NCBI GenBank assembly: GCA_020353215.1
Contig: CP070692.1
Coordinates: 352,933-386,073 of the forward strand
Reading direction: 5' to 3'
Origin: Deltaproteobacteria bacterium
Lineage (GTDB): Bacteria > Desulfobacterota > Syntrophobacteria > BM002
DNA length: 33,141 nt
Below the pieces are notes generated by a model. It did no database searches and was not told the origin of the DNA. It was given only the letters and a program-made list of their open reading frames with translations. Shown here piece by piece: positions 26,182 to 31,257 of the stretch (within the stretch, counting starts at the first letter, position 1; the number at the start of each line of letters is the position of its first letter). A program made the translations under genes and the position numbers.

Positions 26182-26589
26182 TTAGAAGATGATCTGCACT
26201 GCTTCATAAGGACAGGTGGGCAGACACAGTTCGCAAGCGATACACTTGTCCTCGTTAAAAGAAACCCGCATTTGTTCTCTTTCCACCGAAAGTGCCCCTG
26301 TGGGGCAGATGGACGTGCAGGCGGTGCATTCGATGCAACGCTCTTCGCTCCATTGAACGTTCTGGGCCAGAGGTTTGACCTCCACCCCAAGATCGGATGC
26401 GTACTTGAGGCCTGCGTCCAGATTCTTCTTACTGCCACTGACTTCAACCACCAGTCTACCCCGTTCCCTGGGCGTAACCCGGGCCCTGAGAATGTTCACC
26501 TTTAGCTTATGATCTGTTATCAGCTGGTAGGTAAGGGGCTGTTCGATCAAATTTGGTGGGAAATTGAACACAAGTCGTTTTGTTGCCAT
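26182..26589 (-). CDS. NIL-domain ferredoxin, partner of DUF39 homocysteine synthase
   Basis: A 135-residue protein with an N-terminal NIL domain (about 1-75; a small ACT-like fold) and two [4Fe-4S] clusters: Cys85/88/91/95 and Cys116/119/122/126, each ending in CP. In methanogens and many anaerobes this protein is encoded beside a DUF39 protein, and the pair converts aspartate semialdehyde and sulfide to homocysteine; the ferredoxin half supplies electrons. GGAGG lies upstream of the ATG, and the DUF39 gene ends 90 bases before it on the same strand. The function here rests on that known pairing. Confidence 0.92.
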   Translation of the reverse strand: MATKRLVFNFPPNLIEQPLTYQLITDHKLKVNILRARVTPRERGRLVVEVSGSKKNLDAGLKYASDLGVEVKPLAQNVQWSEERCIECTACTSICPTGALSVEREQMRVSFNEDKCIACELCLPTCPYEAVQIIF

Positions 26590-26679: not shown

Positions 26680-27909
26680 CTAGTTCACTGCCACCTTATT
26701 GTTGTTGACAATTGGCCTTTCATTCAGGGGTTTGAACTGAACTCCTGAATCCGCCGAAGGCAGCGGCGCCACCGGCTCACTCAGGAGGAAAGAACCGGTC
26801 TCAACCCAATCCTTGAGAATTCCGGCGACCTCCCTGGCGCGAGCATAGGAAGAAAGCCCGGCAGTGGGTATTTCTTTGCCGTTAACCGTAACGGAACCTG
26901 ACTTGAGCTGGGCGTAGCTGACCTCACCGAGGCTGCCGGGAACACACTTCGGATAGGCTTCGCTGTAATCCACCACCTGGGCGACGATGTCTGCGTCCGT
27001 GACTGTGGTGAAGCGCAGTGTTTCCTCGTCCAGAATGGGGATGGGGATACCGATCCCCACGGCAAGGGTGACGCCGTAGCCAACAAAAGAGGCGCCCCGA
27101 AGCCAGCGATTGCTCATCTGTTTCAAATCGCCCATCAGTGCAAGGGTCCCGGCGCCCATACGAGGAACACCTTGCTCGGTTCGTGGTACTGAGGGATTGT
27201 GTTGGGTGCCCCTTTCCACTACGTAACCAATGCCGCCGCCAAGAAAGATACGGGTTCCCACTCCAATGGTGCGGTAAAAGGGATCGTTGAGCAGCGGGCT
27301 GAGCTGGCCAGCACTGCAGTAGGTTGCGTTTCGCAGTTCAGGGTGAAGTACGCCCATGTAAGTGTGTATAATACGGTCTGATAAATTCACCGCCACATTA
27401 TAGTTCTGGTACGCATTACGCGTATTGAACAGCACGGCTTCGTTCATATCCTCGAGTCTGATCCAGGTCTCGAGCTTGCGGCGGGGATAACAGTCGGTGC
27501 CGTAAGCCCGGGCCACCAGCCTCACGTCTTTGCCTGCCACCAGATCTTCAATCAAGTGGCCACCGCCGTAGGGAAATTTCCCCGGATAGATTTTATTTCT
27601 TGGATCGTCGTCAGGAATTGCTGTGGCCCCAACCAGAAAATCCACCGCAGCAAAGCCGGTATATACTGGCACATCGTTCAGGGTAACCTGTCCACCGCCC
27701 AACTTGATTCGGGGGTTGGCATGACCAGGATTGAAGTAAGCTCCGGATGAGCACATTGGGGCGAAGGTGCCGGTGGTAACCAGATCCACCTCGGCTGCGG
27801 CTTTCTTTACGCCCTTCTTCTTGACAACGTCAATTATCTCTTCTGCGGTATAGACAACCGCCTTTCCTTTCTTAATCTTCTCATTGATTTCTTGGATGGT
27901 CTTTGCCAT
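26680..27909 (-). CDS. DUF39 homocysteine biosynthesis protein (aspartate semialdehyde sulfurtransferase)
   Basis: A 409-residue DUF39 (HcyS-type) protein. The N-terminal TIQEINEKIKKGKAVVYTAEE, the TTGTFAPMCSSGAYFN segment (about 46-61) with a conserved cysteine, and GTRIFLGGGIGYVVERGTQH are family hallmarks. It is thought to take sulfide and aspartate semialdehyde to homocysteine, replacing the usual MetA/MetX-MetB/MetY route. AGGAGG precedes the ATG. It forms an operon with the NIL-ferredoxin at 26182. The upstream leader contains a 20-codon cysteine-rich frame (27936-27998), so expression may respond to cysteine supply. CysK lies just upstream on the same strand. Confidence 0.92.
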   Translation of the reverse strand: MAKTIQEINEKIKKGKAVVYTAEEIIDVVKKKGVKKAAAEVDLVTTGTFAPMCSSGAYFNPGHANPRIKLGGGQVTLNDVPVYTGFAAVDFLVGATAIPDDDPRNKIYPGKFPYGGGHLIEDLVAGKDVRLVARAYGTDCYPRRKLETWIRLEDMNEAVLFNTRNAYQNYNVAVNLSDRIIHTYMGVLHPELRNATYCSAGQLSPLLNDPFYRTIGVGTRIFLGGGIGYVVERGTQHNPSVPRTEQGVPRMGAGTLALMGDLKQMSNRWLRGASFVGYGVTLAVGIGIPIPILDEETLRFTTVTDADIVAQVVDYSEAYPKCVPGSLGEVSYAQLKSGSVTVNGKEIPTAGLSSYARAREVAGILKDWVETGSFLLSEPVAPLPSADSGVQFKPLNERPIVNNNKVAVN

Positions 27910-28091: not shown

Positions 28092-29006
28092 TCACTGCCA
28101 CGTACTGATGTACCTTTCACCTGTACTGGGCAGCACCACGACTACTGTTTTCCCGCGGTTCTCGTCCCGTTGGGCGACCCGAAGGGCTGCCCAGACAGCA
28201 GCGCCACTGGAGATTCCGGCGAGAATCCCTTCCTCTCTGGCCAACCGGGCCGCTGTCTCTTCTGCATCCTGTGTTTGAACCTGGATAATCTCATCCACTA
28301 ATTCCAGCCGTAGCACGGCCGGCACAAACCCGGCCCCGATTCCCTGGATTTTGTGAGGTCCAGGTTGGCCGCCGGAAAGCACCGGTGAGTCGGCTGGCTC
28401 CACAGCAATGGCCTTGAAAGACGGCTTTTTGGGCTTAATGACTTCGGCAACGCCGGTAATGGTACCACCGGTTCCAACCCCGGCTACGAGGATGTCCACG
28501 CCCCCATCGGTGCCATCCCAGATCTCCAGCGCTGTAGTCTCCCGATGCACTTGAGGGTTGGCCGGATTGGCAAACTGGTCCGGTAGATGAGCTCCAGGGG
28601 AGGCGGCCAGCAGTTCTTCCGCCTTGCGGATCGCTCCCTTCATACCCTCGGTCCCAGGGGTGAGCACCAGTTCTGCGCCCAATCGCGTCAGGAGCTTACG
28701 CCTTTCCACGCTCATGGTTTCGGGCATGGTCAAAATCAGCCGATAGCCTTTACTGGCCGCCACCATAGCAAGGGCGATGCCAGTGTTGCCGCTTGTGGGC
28801 TCGATGATAGTTCCTCCGGGCTCCAACTTGCCAGCAACCTCGGCTGCTTCAATCATGCTCCGACCGATTCGGTCTTTTACGCTCCCCAGAGGATTGAAAA
28901 ACTCCAGTTTCGCCAGAATCTGCACACCGGAACCGCCAGCCTTATTCTTTAAACGAACCATGGGAGTGTTCCCAATGGTATAGCGGATATCTGTGTTGAT
29001 ATTCAT
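28092..29006 (-). CDS. cysK: Cysteine synthase A (O-acetylserine sulfhydrylase)
   Basis: A 304-residue PLP enzyme that makes cysteine from O-acetylserine and sulfide. Lys44 in [11 protein letters not shown] binds PLP; PTSGNTG (70-76) is the substrate loop; [18 protein letters not shown] binds the phosphate of PLP. Length and motifs are standard for the CysK/CysM fold; the split between CysK and CysM is not certain, but the neighbouring cysE favours CysK. GAGGTGA lies just before the ATG. The CysE gene ends six bases upstream, so the two form one operon, making a complete serine-to-cysteine route. Confidence 0.95.
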
Positions 29007-29012
29007 AAGCGC

Positions 29013-30002
29013 TCACCTCGCCTTCACTTCGGGTTCCGCCTTCTTGTAGATCAGTTTAGGCGGGGCCAAAAAGACCTTGGTATCTGGAGGCACAGAGCGG
29101 GTAATCCAAACACTTCCACCTATAACTGAACCAGCACCGATTACAGTCTCACCACCCAGTATTGTTGCACCGGCATAAATAGTCACATCGTCTTCGATGG
29201 TGGGATGCCGTTTGGCATACCGCAGTTGTTCCACCTCTTCTTTGGGAAGGGAGAGGGCACCCAGGGTCACTCCCTGATAGATCCGCACCCGCTCGCCAAT
29301 GGTAGTGGTTTCCCCTATGACCACTCCGGTGCCATGGTCAATGAAGAAACTGGAATCAATGTCGGCCCCTGGATGGATATCGATTCCGGTGACACTATGG
29401 GCGTACTCTGACATCATCCGCGGCAGCAAAGGTATCTCTTGCGACCAGAGTTGGTGAGCGATCCGGTGTATGGTAATTGCCATTACTCCCGGGTAACTGA
29501 GTACCACCTCATCGATGGTCTTGGCGGCTGGATCCCCGTCGTAGGCAGCCTGAACGTCAGTGGTCAGAATCTTCCGCAATTCCGGCAAATGCTCCAGAAA
29601 CCGGACAGCTTCGCGCTGGCCACGTTCTTGACAATGGGTGCATACCAACATATAGCGCTGGCAATCGTGTCGAATGCTAAGGGCAATGTCTTCAGAGAGA
29701 ATCTCGAAGAGCCGGTTCACCTCAGTACCGACAAAGTATTTCAACTGATTGGAGTCGAGCGGCTGACCGTTGTTGAAATATCCGGGATAGAGCAAACGTC
29801 TGGTTCGCTGAATGATTTCCACAGTGTTTTCCATTGATGGTATGATCTCTGCGTCCACATGAGCGAACAAGCCGGGATCTCGACTCGAGGCAACCAATTC
29901 GTCGATGACAGCAGGAAGCTGATCGCGAATCTGAGTAGTGGTTTCGAAGGCTAAACGGCAGGCCTCTGTTTCCTTATTATAAGACTGGTGTGCTGAGCTC
30001 AT
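29013..30002 (-). CDS. cysE: Serine O-acetyltransferase
   Basis: A 329-residue CysE/EpsC-type enzyme that transfers acetyl from acetyl-CoA to serine. The C-terminal left-handed beta-helix has the hexapeptide pattern and the catalytic histidine in [15 protein letters not shown] (His223), with IDIHPGADI just before. The first ~165 residues form a longer helical N-terminal domain, as in the plant/anaerobe-type enzymes (about 310-330 residues). ATG 30002 is chosen because AGGAAG lies upstream and residues before it, though open to 30188, do not fit the family. It is the first gene of cysE-cysK and is preceded by a strong promoter, a ~300-base leader and a cysteine-rich upstream frame. Confidence 0.93.
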
Positions 30003-30050: not shown

Positions 30051-30112
30051 ATGCGTCTGCGCTGATGTTGGTCCTGATTCCTGTAGGAACTTGACAAGAC
30101 AGGCGGCGGGTA

Positions 30113-30262
30113 TTAGGCGGCGGGCGGGTCGGAGGCTGGTGATCGCAAGGGCGGTGAACCGGTTCTTCTGGCCATCGGACGCAACCATCGGCCGTAGCCG
30201 CTATCCCCGTCGGTTAGGTAGACACGACAACAACAGCCCATGTCGTCCTCGCACATGACCAT
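30113..30262 (-). CDS. Polycysteine leader peptide upstream of cysE (putative attenuator uORF)
   Basis: A 49-codon frame ending at TAA 30113-30115. It begins [15 protein letters not shown], with three consecutive TGT codons (30227-30235) after an earlier TGC. It sits behind GAAAGGGGGTGGT (30272-30284), nine bases before the ATG; an in-frame GTG at 30268 is an alternative start. The frame lies 110 bases before cysE within a ~300-base leader of a strong promoter. Polycysteine upstream frames acting as cysteine-responsive attenuators are known in mycobacteria; I know of no such case in this lineage. Low cysteine would stall ribosomes at the Cys triplet and refold the leader. Confidence 0.65.
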
Positions 30263-30271
30263 ATCCACGTC

Positions 30272-30284
30272 ACCACCCCCTTTC
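30272..30284 (-). promoter_or_regulatory. Shared 13-base leader element (copy 1)
   Basis: GAAAGGGGGTGGT on the minus strand, exactly as at 28007-28019. It probably acts as ribosome-binding site of the polycysteine leader peptide. Confidence 0.55.
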
Positions 30285-30313
30285 ATTATCATATTCGTTC
30301 AGTAGAGTAATGT

Positions 30314-30341: not shown

Positions 30342-30499
30342 GTCAAGGTTTCTTTCCAGGATTTTCCCCAAAAAGGACATGGGCCCGGGCAGAGGGGCAG
30401 GCTGCTCCACAACGAGCAATTTTGCGCCATTTTATGGCAATGTCCCGGTTAAGAAAGTGCCAAATCTTCATGCAGGCGTTAGCCGGGCTGAGATAGGCA

Positions 30500-30847
30500 A
30501 AGGCAGGTTGCTCAGATGCTCGTTGTTTCGCAGTCGTCACCTCTGCTTTTTTTGGTGTCTTTTTAGTCGGTGGCAATTCCATAGGCGCAAAGTTGTTCGC
30601 CTCGGTGGTGGGAGCATTCATGTACTTTGCCACCCTTACGGAAGTACCGATTCCGCAGGGCCTCCTTGGAGCTGGTATGGGGAAAGGGCCTGCACTGGCC
30701 TTGCGTCTCGCTGGACCAGCACTGAGTTTGCCTAACATGTTGGTGATTCGGAGTGTAATGGGTACCAAAAAGACACTGGTTTTCGTGTGCCTGGTTGTGG
30801 TGATGTCCACGATGGGTGGGCTCATTTTTGGAAACTTTTTGTCCTAG
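30500..30847 (+). pseudogene. C-terminal remnant of a COG0701-type permease
   Basis: The frame ending at 30847 encodes membrane segments of the predicted permease family: AVVTSAFFGVFLVGGNSIG, GAFMYFATLTEVPIPQGLLG, GPALSLPNMLVIRSVMGTKK, then a last helix. The 'ATLTEVPI..GLL..GM' block is diagnostic. A TAG stop interrupts this frame at about 30492, and upstream sequence shows no family similarity in any frame, so roughly the first half of the gene is gone. Relatives are usually paired with a redox-active thioredoxin-like protein, and one is intact at 31024. A TTG at 30593 could start a short product, but it would cut through a membrane helix. Confidence 0.65.
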
Positions 30848-31023: not shown

Positions 31024-31257
31024 ATGGAAATCAAAGTACTGGGTCCTGGTTGCCCAAAATGTCATACCTCGGAGAAAAACGCCAGGGAGGCGGTGGAGGA
31101 ACTCGGTCTCAATGCCAGAGTCACCAAAATTACGGACCTGAACGACATAGCTGATCACGGTATATTCATAACCCCAGGCTTGGTTGTGGACGGGGAGGTC
31201 AAAGTGGCGGGTAAAGTGGTCAGTAAGAACGAGATCAAGCGAATCCTTTCCAGATAG
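31024..31257 (+). CDS. Redox-active thioredoxin-like protein (MTH895/TM0996 family)
   Basis: A 77-residue small thioredoxin-fold protein with the active-site motif GPGCPKC (Cys10/Cys13) and the cis-proline segment FITPGLVVDGEVKVAGKV. This family is repeatedly found beside COG0701 permeases, as here, and is thought to reduce a substrate or regulate the permease, possibly in arsenic or metal handling. GAGAGGAGG precedes the ATG. Since the permease gene upstream is broken, this gene may now be an orphan or may serve a permease elsewhere. Confidence 0.9.
   Translation: MEIKVLGPGCPKCHTSEKNAREAVEELGLNARVTKITDLNDIADHGIFITPGLVVDGEVKVAGKVVSKNEIKRILSR

Follow-up and report, generated by a model that had tools for sequence, protein, structure and literature searches.

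A conserved cysteine-codon leader frame upstream of cysE–cysK in uncultured Desulfobacterota, a candidate ribosome-mediated attenuator

Results

The cysE operon and its leader frame

The window, i.e., the whole stretch of 33,141 nucleotides that was analysed, carries on its minus strand the genes cysE and cysK, followed by a gene for an HcyBio protein and an adjoining ferredoxin gene (Table 1). In the relatives, cysK also follows cysE and HcyBio is the third gene, as far as the contigs reach. Because HcyBio comes after cysE–cysK in the relatives too, the leader upstream of cysE may control cysteine and homocysteine synthesis alike.

The sequence-only reading had placed a Cys-rich leader frame behind a strong promoter and 110 bases ahead of the cysteine genes. 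Read on the minus strand, the frame, its coordinates and its Cys codons were all found as claimed, the promoter is close to consensus (Table 1), and the distance from the end of the frame to the cysE ATG (30002) is indeed 110 bases. The alignment of the relatives also shows TTGAC and an A/T-rich −10 region at the equivalent place. The GTG start, with GAAAGGGGGTGGTGAC on its 5′ side, is the start that is kept in the relatives, and this Shine-Dalgarno sequence (SD) is nearly invariant in the alignment. The upstream start at 30292, which a mechanical open reading frame call had returned, was rejected in favor of this conserved, SD-bearing GTG. The 16S tail pattern containing the anti-SD was not found in the genome, where the rRNA match is partial, and the strength of the leader SD was therefore judged against the general CCUCC tail. 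About 45 nt separate the −10 hexamer of the predicted promoter from the GTG, and together with the strong SD this distance indicates that the frame is not leaderless. The frame is 45–47 codons long in ten relatives and 51 codons long in the window genome.

Table 1. Coordinates of the features of the leader and the operon in the window
Feature	Position	Strand	Remarks
Sigma-70-type promoter, TTGACA-N16-TATACT	30341–30314	minus	Matches the consensus at 11 of 12 bases; −10 hexamer preceded by TG
Extended SD of the leader frame	30269–30284	minus	GAAAGGGGGTGGTGAC; AAAGGAGGTGATCC in L017
Leader reading frame	30268–30113	minus	GTG start, 51 codons and TAA
Stem P1, 5′ strand (SD through start codon)	30264–30279	minus	
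Inner stem P2, 5′ strand	30256–30262	minus	ATGGTCA
Cys codon 6 (TGC)	30251–30253	minus	7 of the 11 genomes have Cys, the others Ser or Arg
Acidic run, codons 7–9 (E D D)	30242–30250	minus	Acidic in 11 of 11 genomes
Cys run, codons 12–14 (TGT TGT TGT)	30227–30235	minus	TGT/TGC swaps in relatives
Inner stem P2, 3′ strand	30169–30174	minus	TGGCCA
Stem P1, 3′ strand, inside the leader frame	30148–30157	minus	TCACCGCCCT; pairs with the leader SD
C-rich, G-poor, Rho-site-like stretch across the leader frame end	30098–30157	minus	C minus G = 0.35 over 60 nt
cysE, serine O-acetyltransferase (hexapeptide-repeat type)	29013–30002	minus	PF00132 over cut-off; SATase_N sub-threshold
cysK, cysteine synthase	28092–29006	minus	PF00291, 2.4e-74
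HcyBio protein, sulfur incorporation in homocysteine synthesis	26680–27909	minus	PF01837, 3e-150
NIL-domain ferredoxin, adjoins HcyBio	26182–26589	minus	

The leader frame accompanies cysE in a single clade

When cysE was sought in 98 relatives, it was found in 10 members of the family (the window genome and a partial contig included) and in G013, a genome from a different family of this class. The leader frame lies 5′ of cysE in all 11 of these cysE-bearing clade genomes. The 67 bases from the SD through the Cys run were turned into a sequence model, which matched strongly (E below 1e-13) once and only once in every one of the 11 genomes, always at cysE, and had no strong match in the remaining 45 of the 56 genomes of the class. 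Among these 45 are all three family genomes where cysE was not found, and the leader was absent from them. In a phylum sample of 297 genomes, the model matched two family members only. The sub-threshold matches that were inspected, among them an EHL-MREDD frame, belonged to other coding genes or were chance similarities.

Among 80 records, mostly of Desulfobacterota, no Cys-rich frame was found at the leader position of the other cysE loci; the Cys-frame matches that did arise there are unrelated frames, and the one at L071 is a contig-end artefact. The named relatives are metagenome-assembled genomes (MAGs) called Deltaproteobacteria bacterium and Syntrophobacteria bacterium, indicating that the group bearing the leader consists of uncultured Desulfobacterota.

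Cys codons and selection along the frame

The triplet TGYTGYTGY occurs twice in the window, and 2.35 occurrences were expected from shuffling. A TGT triplet by itself is thus no proof, and the case rests on comparison. Across the 11 genomes, Cys is found at codon 12 in all, at codon 13 in 10 and at codon 14 in eight. Codon 12 is invariant as an amino acid, with TGT and TGC interchanged there. The run contains at least two consecutive Cys residues in 10 of the 11 genomes and three to five in eight. It is reduced to CC in G008, to CC.C in G002 and to a single Cys (SCRRS) in the leader L015 of G003 (contig C217), in which the GTG start is also gone; the L015 leader is possibly decaying, or its start has shifted to the ATG of codon 3. 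In addition, Met is present at codons 3, 5 and 10 in 11 of 11 genomes, and the acidity of codons 7–9 is kept in these genomes through synonymous and Glu/Asp changes.

The differences at codon positions 1, 2 and 3 among the 11 genomes were 0.10, 0.02 and 0.24 for codons 2–10, and 0.32, 0.19 and 0.45 for codons 11–15. The corresponding values were 0.54, 0.49 and 0.51 for codons 16–30, and 0.49, 0.41 and 0.46 for codons 31–45. Codon-position bias is thus confined to codons 2–15, and codons 16–47 have neither bias nor conserved residues. Since the bias is present at the start and missing in codons 16–30, only the start of the leader appears to be selected as a peptide, and codons 2–10 (MVMxEDDM) are, judged from these substitution patterns, under coding selection.

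The later part of the frame is nevertheless kept open. In codons 16–45 of the 11 genomes, no stop codon occurs in the leader frame, compared to 11 in one and 10 in the other of the two alternative frames, and the leader frame ends at codon 46–48 in 10 of the 11 genomes. Because the frame is open and yet its peptide is unselected, passage of the ribosome through the later codons is seemingly what is meant, whatever the product. This pattern is the presumptive signature of a leader whose translation, and not its product, matters.

The sequence-only reading had proposed that the Cys codons, and not the rest of the frame, should be conserved among the relatives. The comparison largely bears this out: the frame and the Cys codons are kept and codons 16–47 are free in the 11 genomes, but the conservation of MVMxEDDM equals or exceeds that of the Cys run, which has shrunk in the three genomes named above.

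The leader SD can pair with distal codons

The SD and the start codon of the leader are complementary to codons 35–42 of the same frame, forming the predicted stem P1 with the inner stem P2. The P1 duplex in the window has an energy of −23.2 kcal/mol, and values as low were reached in five of 200 codon shuffles. The best partner of the SD and start within the leader lies at +102 to +105 in nine of the 11 genomes, at −22 to −26 kcal/mol, and the pairing beats the codon shuffles in 10 of 11 genomes (0 to 5 of 200 reach it). In L017, the leader of G013, the P1 pairing was not supported against codon shuffles. For the P1/P2 structure as a whole, 84% of the alignment cells can pair, compared to 37–51% when the strands are slid. 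Most changes in P1 affect one strand only (GU for GC or AU), and compensatory covariation amounts to one pair, as the 5′ strand is nearly invariant. The loop of P1/P2 is not conserved, and the 5′ block is strongly conserved.

A C-rich stretch at the end of the frame

Only 0.02% of the 60-nt stretches in the window are as extreme as the C-rich stretch that crosses the end of the leader frame. A C-rich bubble is present at a similar place in all 11 genomes, with C minus G at 0.25 to 0.35; stretches of at least 0.25 account for 0.9% of the window sequence, and by chance one would be expected in about 15% of segments of leader size. Part of the C-rich stretch precedes the stop codon and would be covered by translating ribosomes. 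The genome contains a rho gene. When the full leader was folded, the C residues were more paired with the 5′ arm free, which is the direction that Rho-dependent attenuation would require; this change is slight as long as cysE is untranscribed. Another folding test of the exposure of the stretch was inconsistent. Because more RNA always offers more partners and this other test was inconsistent, the predicted change in exposure of the putative Rho site is weak.

No intrinsic terminator was found in the window, and the T runs of the relatives are scattered, with no common terminator. In L017 (contig C287 of G013), AGGGCC...GGTCCT followed by ATCTTTTTT, about 20–60 bases 5′ of cysE, resembles an intrinsic terminator. 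This leader, for which stem P1 is not supported, may use a classical attenuator instead.

Discussion

We favor the reading that the leader is a cis-acting, ribosome-mediated cysteine attenuator of the cysE–cysK–HcyBio operon, because Cys codons stand before cysteine genes, third-position changes keep Cys, the ribosome-binding site is strong, and the later frame is open and unselected. From the sequence comparison, we would put the probability of this reading at roughly 0.7. Rho as its effector is a more tentative proposal, for which we would give somewhat less than even odds. We infer that the leader is translated, that ribosomes stall on it and in which direction the operon responds.

In the proposed mechanism, the unusually strong SD would load ribosomes onto the leader frame. 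With ample Cys-tRNA, the ribosome would cross the Cys run and reach the stop near codon 47; on passing codons 32–42, it would open stem P1/P2, and the C-rich stretch near the stop would remain accessible, leading to an early end of transcription, probably via Rho. With scarce Cys-tRNA, the ribosome would halt at codons 12–15. If codon 12 occupied the A site, the rear edge of the ribosome would lie at about +16, assuming a footprint of about 30 bases. P1/P2 could form behind the halted ribosome, because the 5′ strand of the stem (−11 to +13) lies just upstream of that edge. Once closed, the stem would shut out new ribosomes and partly tie up the C-rich stretch, and the cys genes would be transcribed.

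Acidic early residues can pause or destabilise ribosomes (PMC11282234, PMC9718836). It is conceivable, although we regard it as a long shot, that the acidic run of codons 7–9 pauses or destabilises the ribosome at the hungry Cys codons, such that shortage would lead to drop-off and not to a simple stall, and that the freed leader would lock its own SD with codons 35–42 and hide the Rho site. If this were true, a single leader would combine mgtL-type ribosome destabilisation with hungry-codon sensing.

Several other readings of the locus were weighed against the attenuator described above. Translational attenuation as in mycobacteria, in which a ribosome stalled at the Cys run would prevent a structure from masking the cysE ribosome-binding site, would fit the lack of a recognisable intrinsic terminator and the hairpin immediately 5′ of the cysE SD in several relatives, and it operates with Cys-rich sORFs in mycobacteria according to the summaries in PMC13236596 and PMC9094748. 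However, for most of the 11 leaders the predicted accessibility of the cysE ribosome-binding site is near-constant between the free, the stalled and the finished state, and we consider this version unlikely. A small acidic protein rich in Cys, encoded by the frame and acting by itself, e.g., in metal or thiol binding, would account for the coding selection on codons 2–15, but not for codons 16–47, where that selection gives way to free change; moreover, the number of Cys residues varies and the frame was never found away from cysE in the class genomes searched, making such a protein highly improbable.

A metabolite-sensing RNA, i.e., a riboswitch residing in the 5′ block and the stems with the frame as an incidental feature, also has little in its favor, even though the long stem P1/P2 and the 5′ block are conserved. 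The block changes mostly at third codon positions with the peptide kept, the stem loop varies, and covariance models of the Rfam families (riboswitches, T-boxes and leaders) gave no match at two thresholds, even at E 5; we regard this reading as very hard to sustain. Finally, the expected number of about two TGY triplets in the window would suit a reading frame that arose by chance, but conservation in 11 genomes, third-position bias and the frame being kept open refute it, leaving this explanation with virtually no credibility.

The trp, his and leu attenuators of enterobacteria likewise have a short leader in which codons for the amino acid being made stand in a row, whereas their intrinsic terminator and U run were not found here. 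For trpL, pairing of the leader SD with a distal segment has been reported. The poly-cysteine leaderless sORFs of mycobacteria, the subject of Canestrari et al. in 2020, are reportedly subject to translational attenuation.

Cys leaders in mycobacteria were first predicted by Seliverstov et al. in 2005, when a Rho-dependent mechanism was also suggested for cys leaders (PMC1262725), and were later reportedly shown by Canestrari 2020, as cited in PMC9094748 and PMC13236596. The leader described here shares with those sORFs a short frame with a Cys run 5′ of cysteine genes, no obvious terminator and a presumed role as a stalling sensor. In contrast to their leaderless frames with the Cys run near the stop codon, it has an extremely strong SD, a Cys run near the start and about 32 further unselected codons, as well as acidic codons ahead of the Cys codons and a stem closing its own SD. 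The uORFC-8-2 predicted before cysS in Rhodobacterales is also a candidate ribosome-mediated attenuator, with tandem Cys codons at its positions 14–15 (PMC8632094). This uORF stands in front of cysS and carries an intrinsic terminator and U run, whereas the present leader precedes cysE–cysK, has no terminator that could be found, and differs in its peptide and structure.

For mgtL–mgtA of enterobacteria, the likeness is in the early acidic residues of the leader peptide, and it is established that full translation of the leader keeps the Rho site open, while early ribosome loss closes it (as described in PMC11282234). However, mgtL senses Mg2+ via ribosome drop-off and not an amino acid via hungry codons, and Rho control of the present operon is presumptive.

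The leader thus resembles the mycobacterial sORFs and uORFC-8-2 in its working, yet lacks defining features of each. New here are the pairing of the SD and start with codons 35–42, followed by the Rho-site-like stretch, with no intrinsic terminator found, and an operon continuing into homocysteine synthesis. The sequence-only reading had suggested that a Cys attenuator would be new for a Desulfobacterota-like genome, with such leaders described in mycobacteria. The former part stands in the open-licence literature, in which no description of a Cys leader was found for Desulfobacterota; the latter is too narrow, as Cys leaders are known beyond mycobacteria, namely that of Rhodobacterales cysS.

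If the proposed attenuator is real, it would extend cysteine-codon attenuation, reported to date in Actinobacteria and Rhodobacterales, to sulfur-cycle Desulfobacterota, and would link it to an operon that includes the anaerobic route to homocysteine, in a group represented here by MAGs alone. It also would add a design whose leader masks its own ribosome-binding site and where ribosome passage, rather than a terminator hairpin, is seemingly selected, providing a compact test case for Rho-dependent attenuation by an amino acid.

Directly 5′ of the cysE promoter, at 30350–30546 (both strands), lies a dispersed repeat of about 150–190 bases, with some 40 copies in the genome at 76–93% identity. 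It has an inverted pair that includes ACAACGAGCA/TGCTCGTTGT and may represent a MITE-like or a structured element. Beyond it, positions 30593–30847 on the plus strand encode an ArsP-type permease of which the last quarter is present (PF03773 positions 215–293 of 294). This is probably a remnant, because the gene lacks its 5′ part where it meets the repeat and the cysE leader. Further along, a small thioredoxin-like protein with a CPKC motif (PF13192) is encoded at 31024–31257 on the plus strand, divergent from the cys operon.
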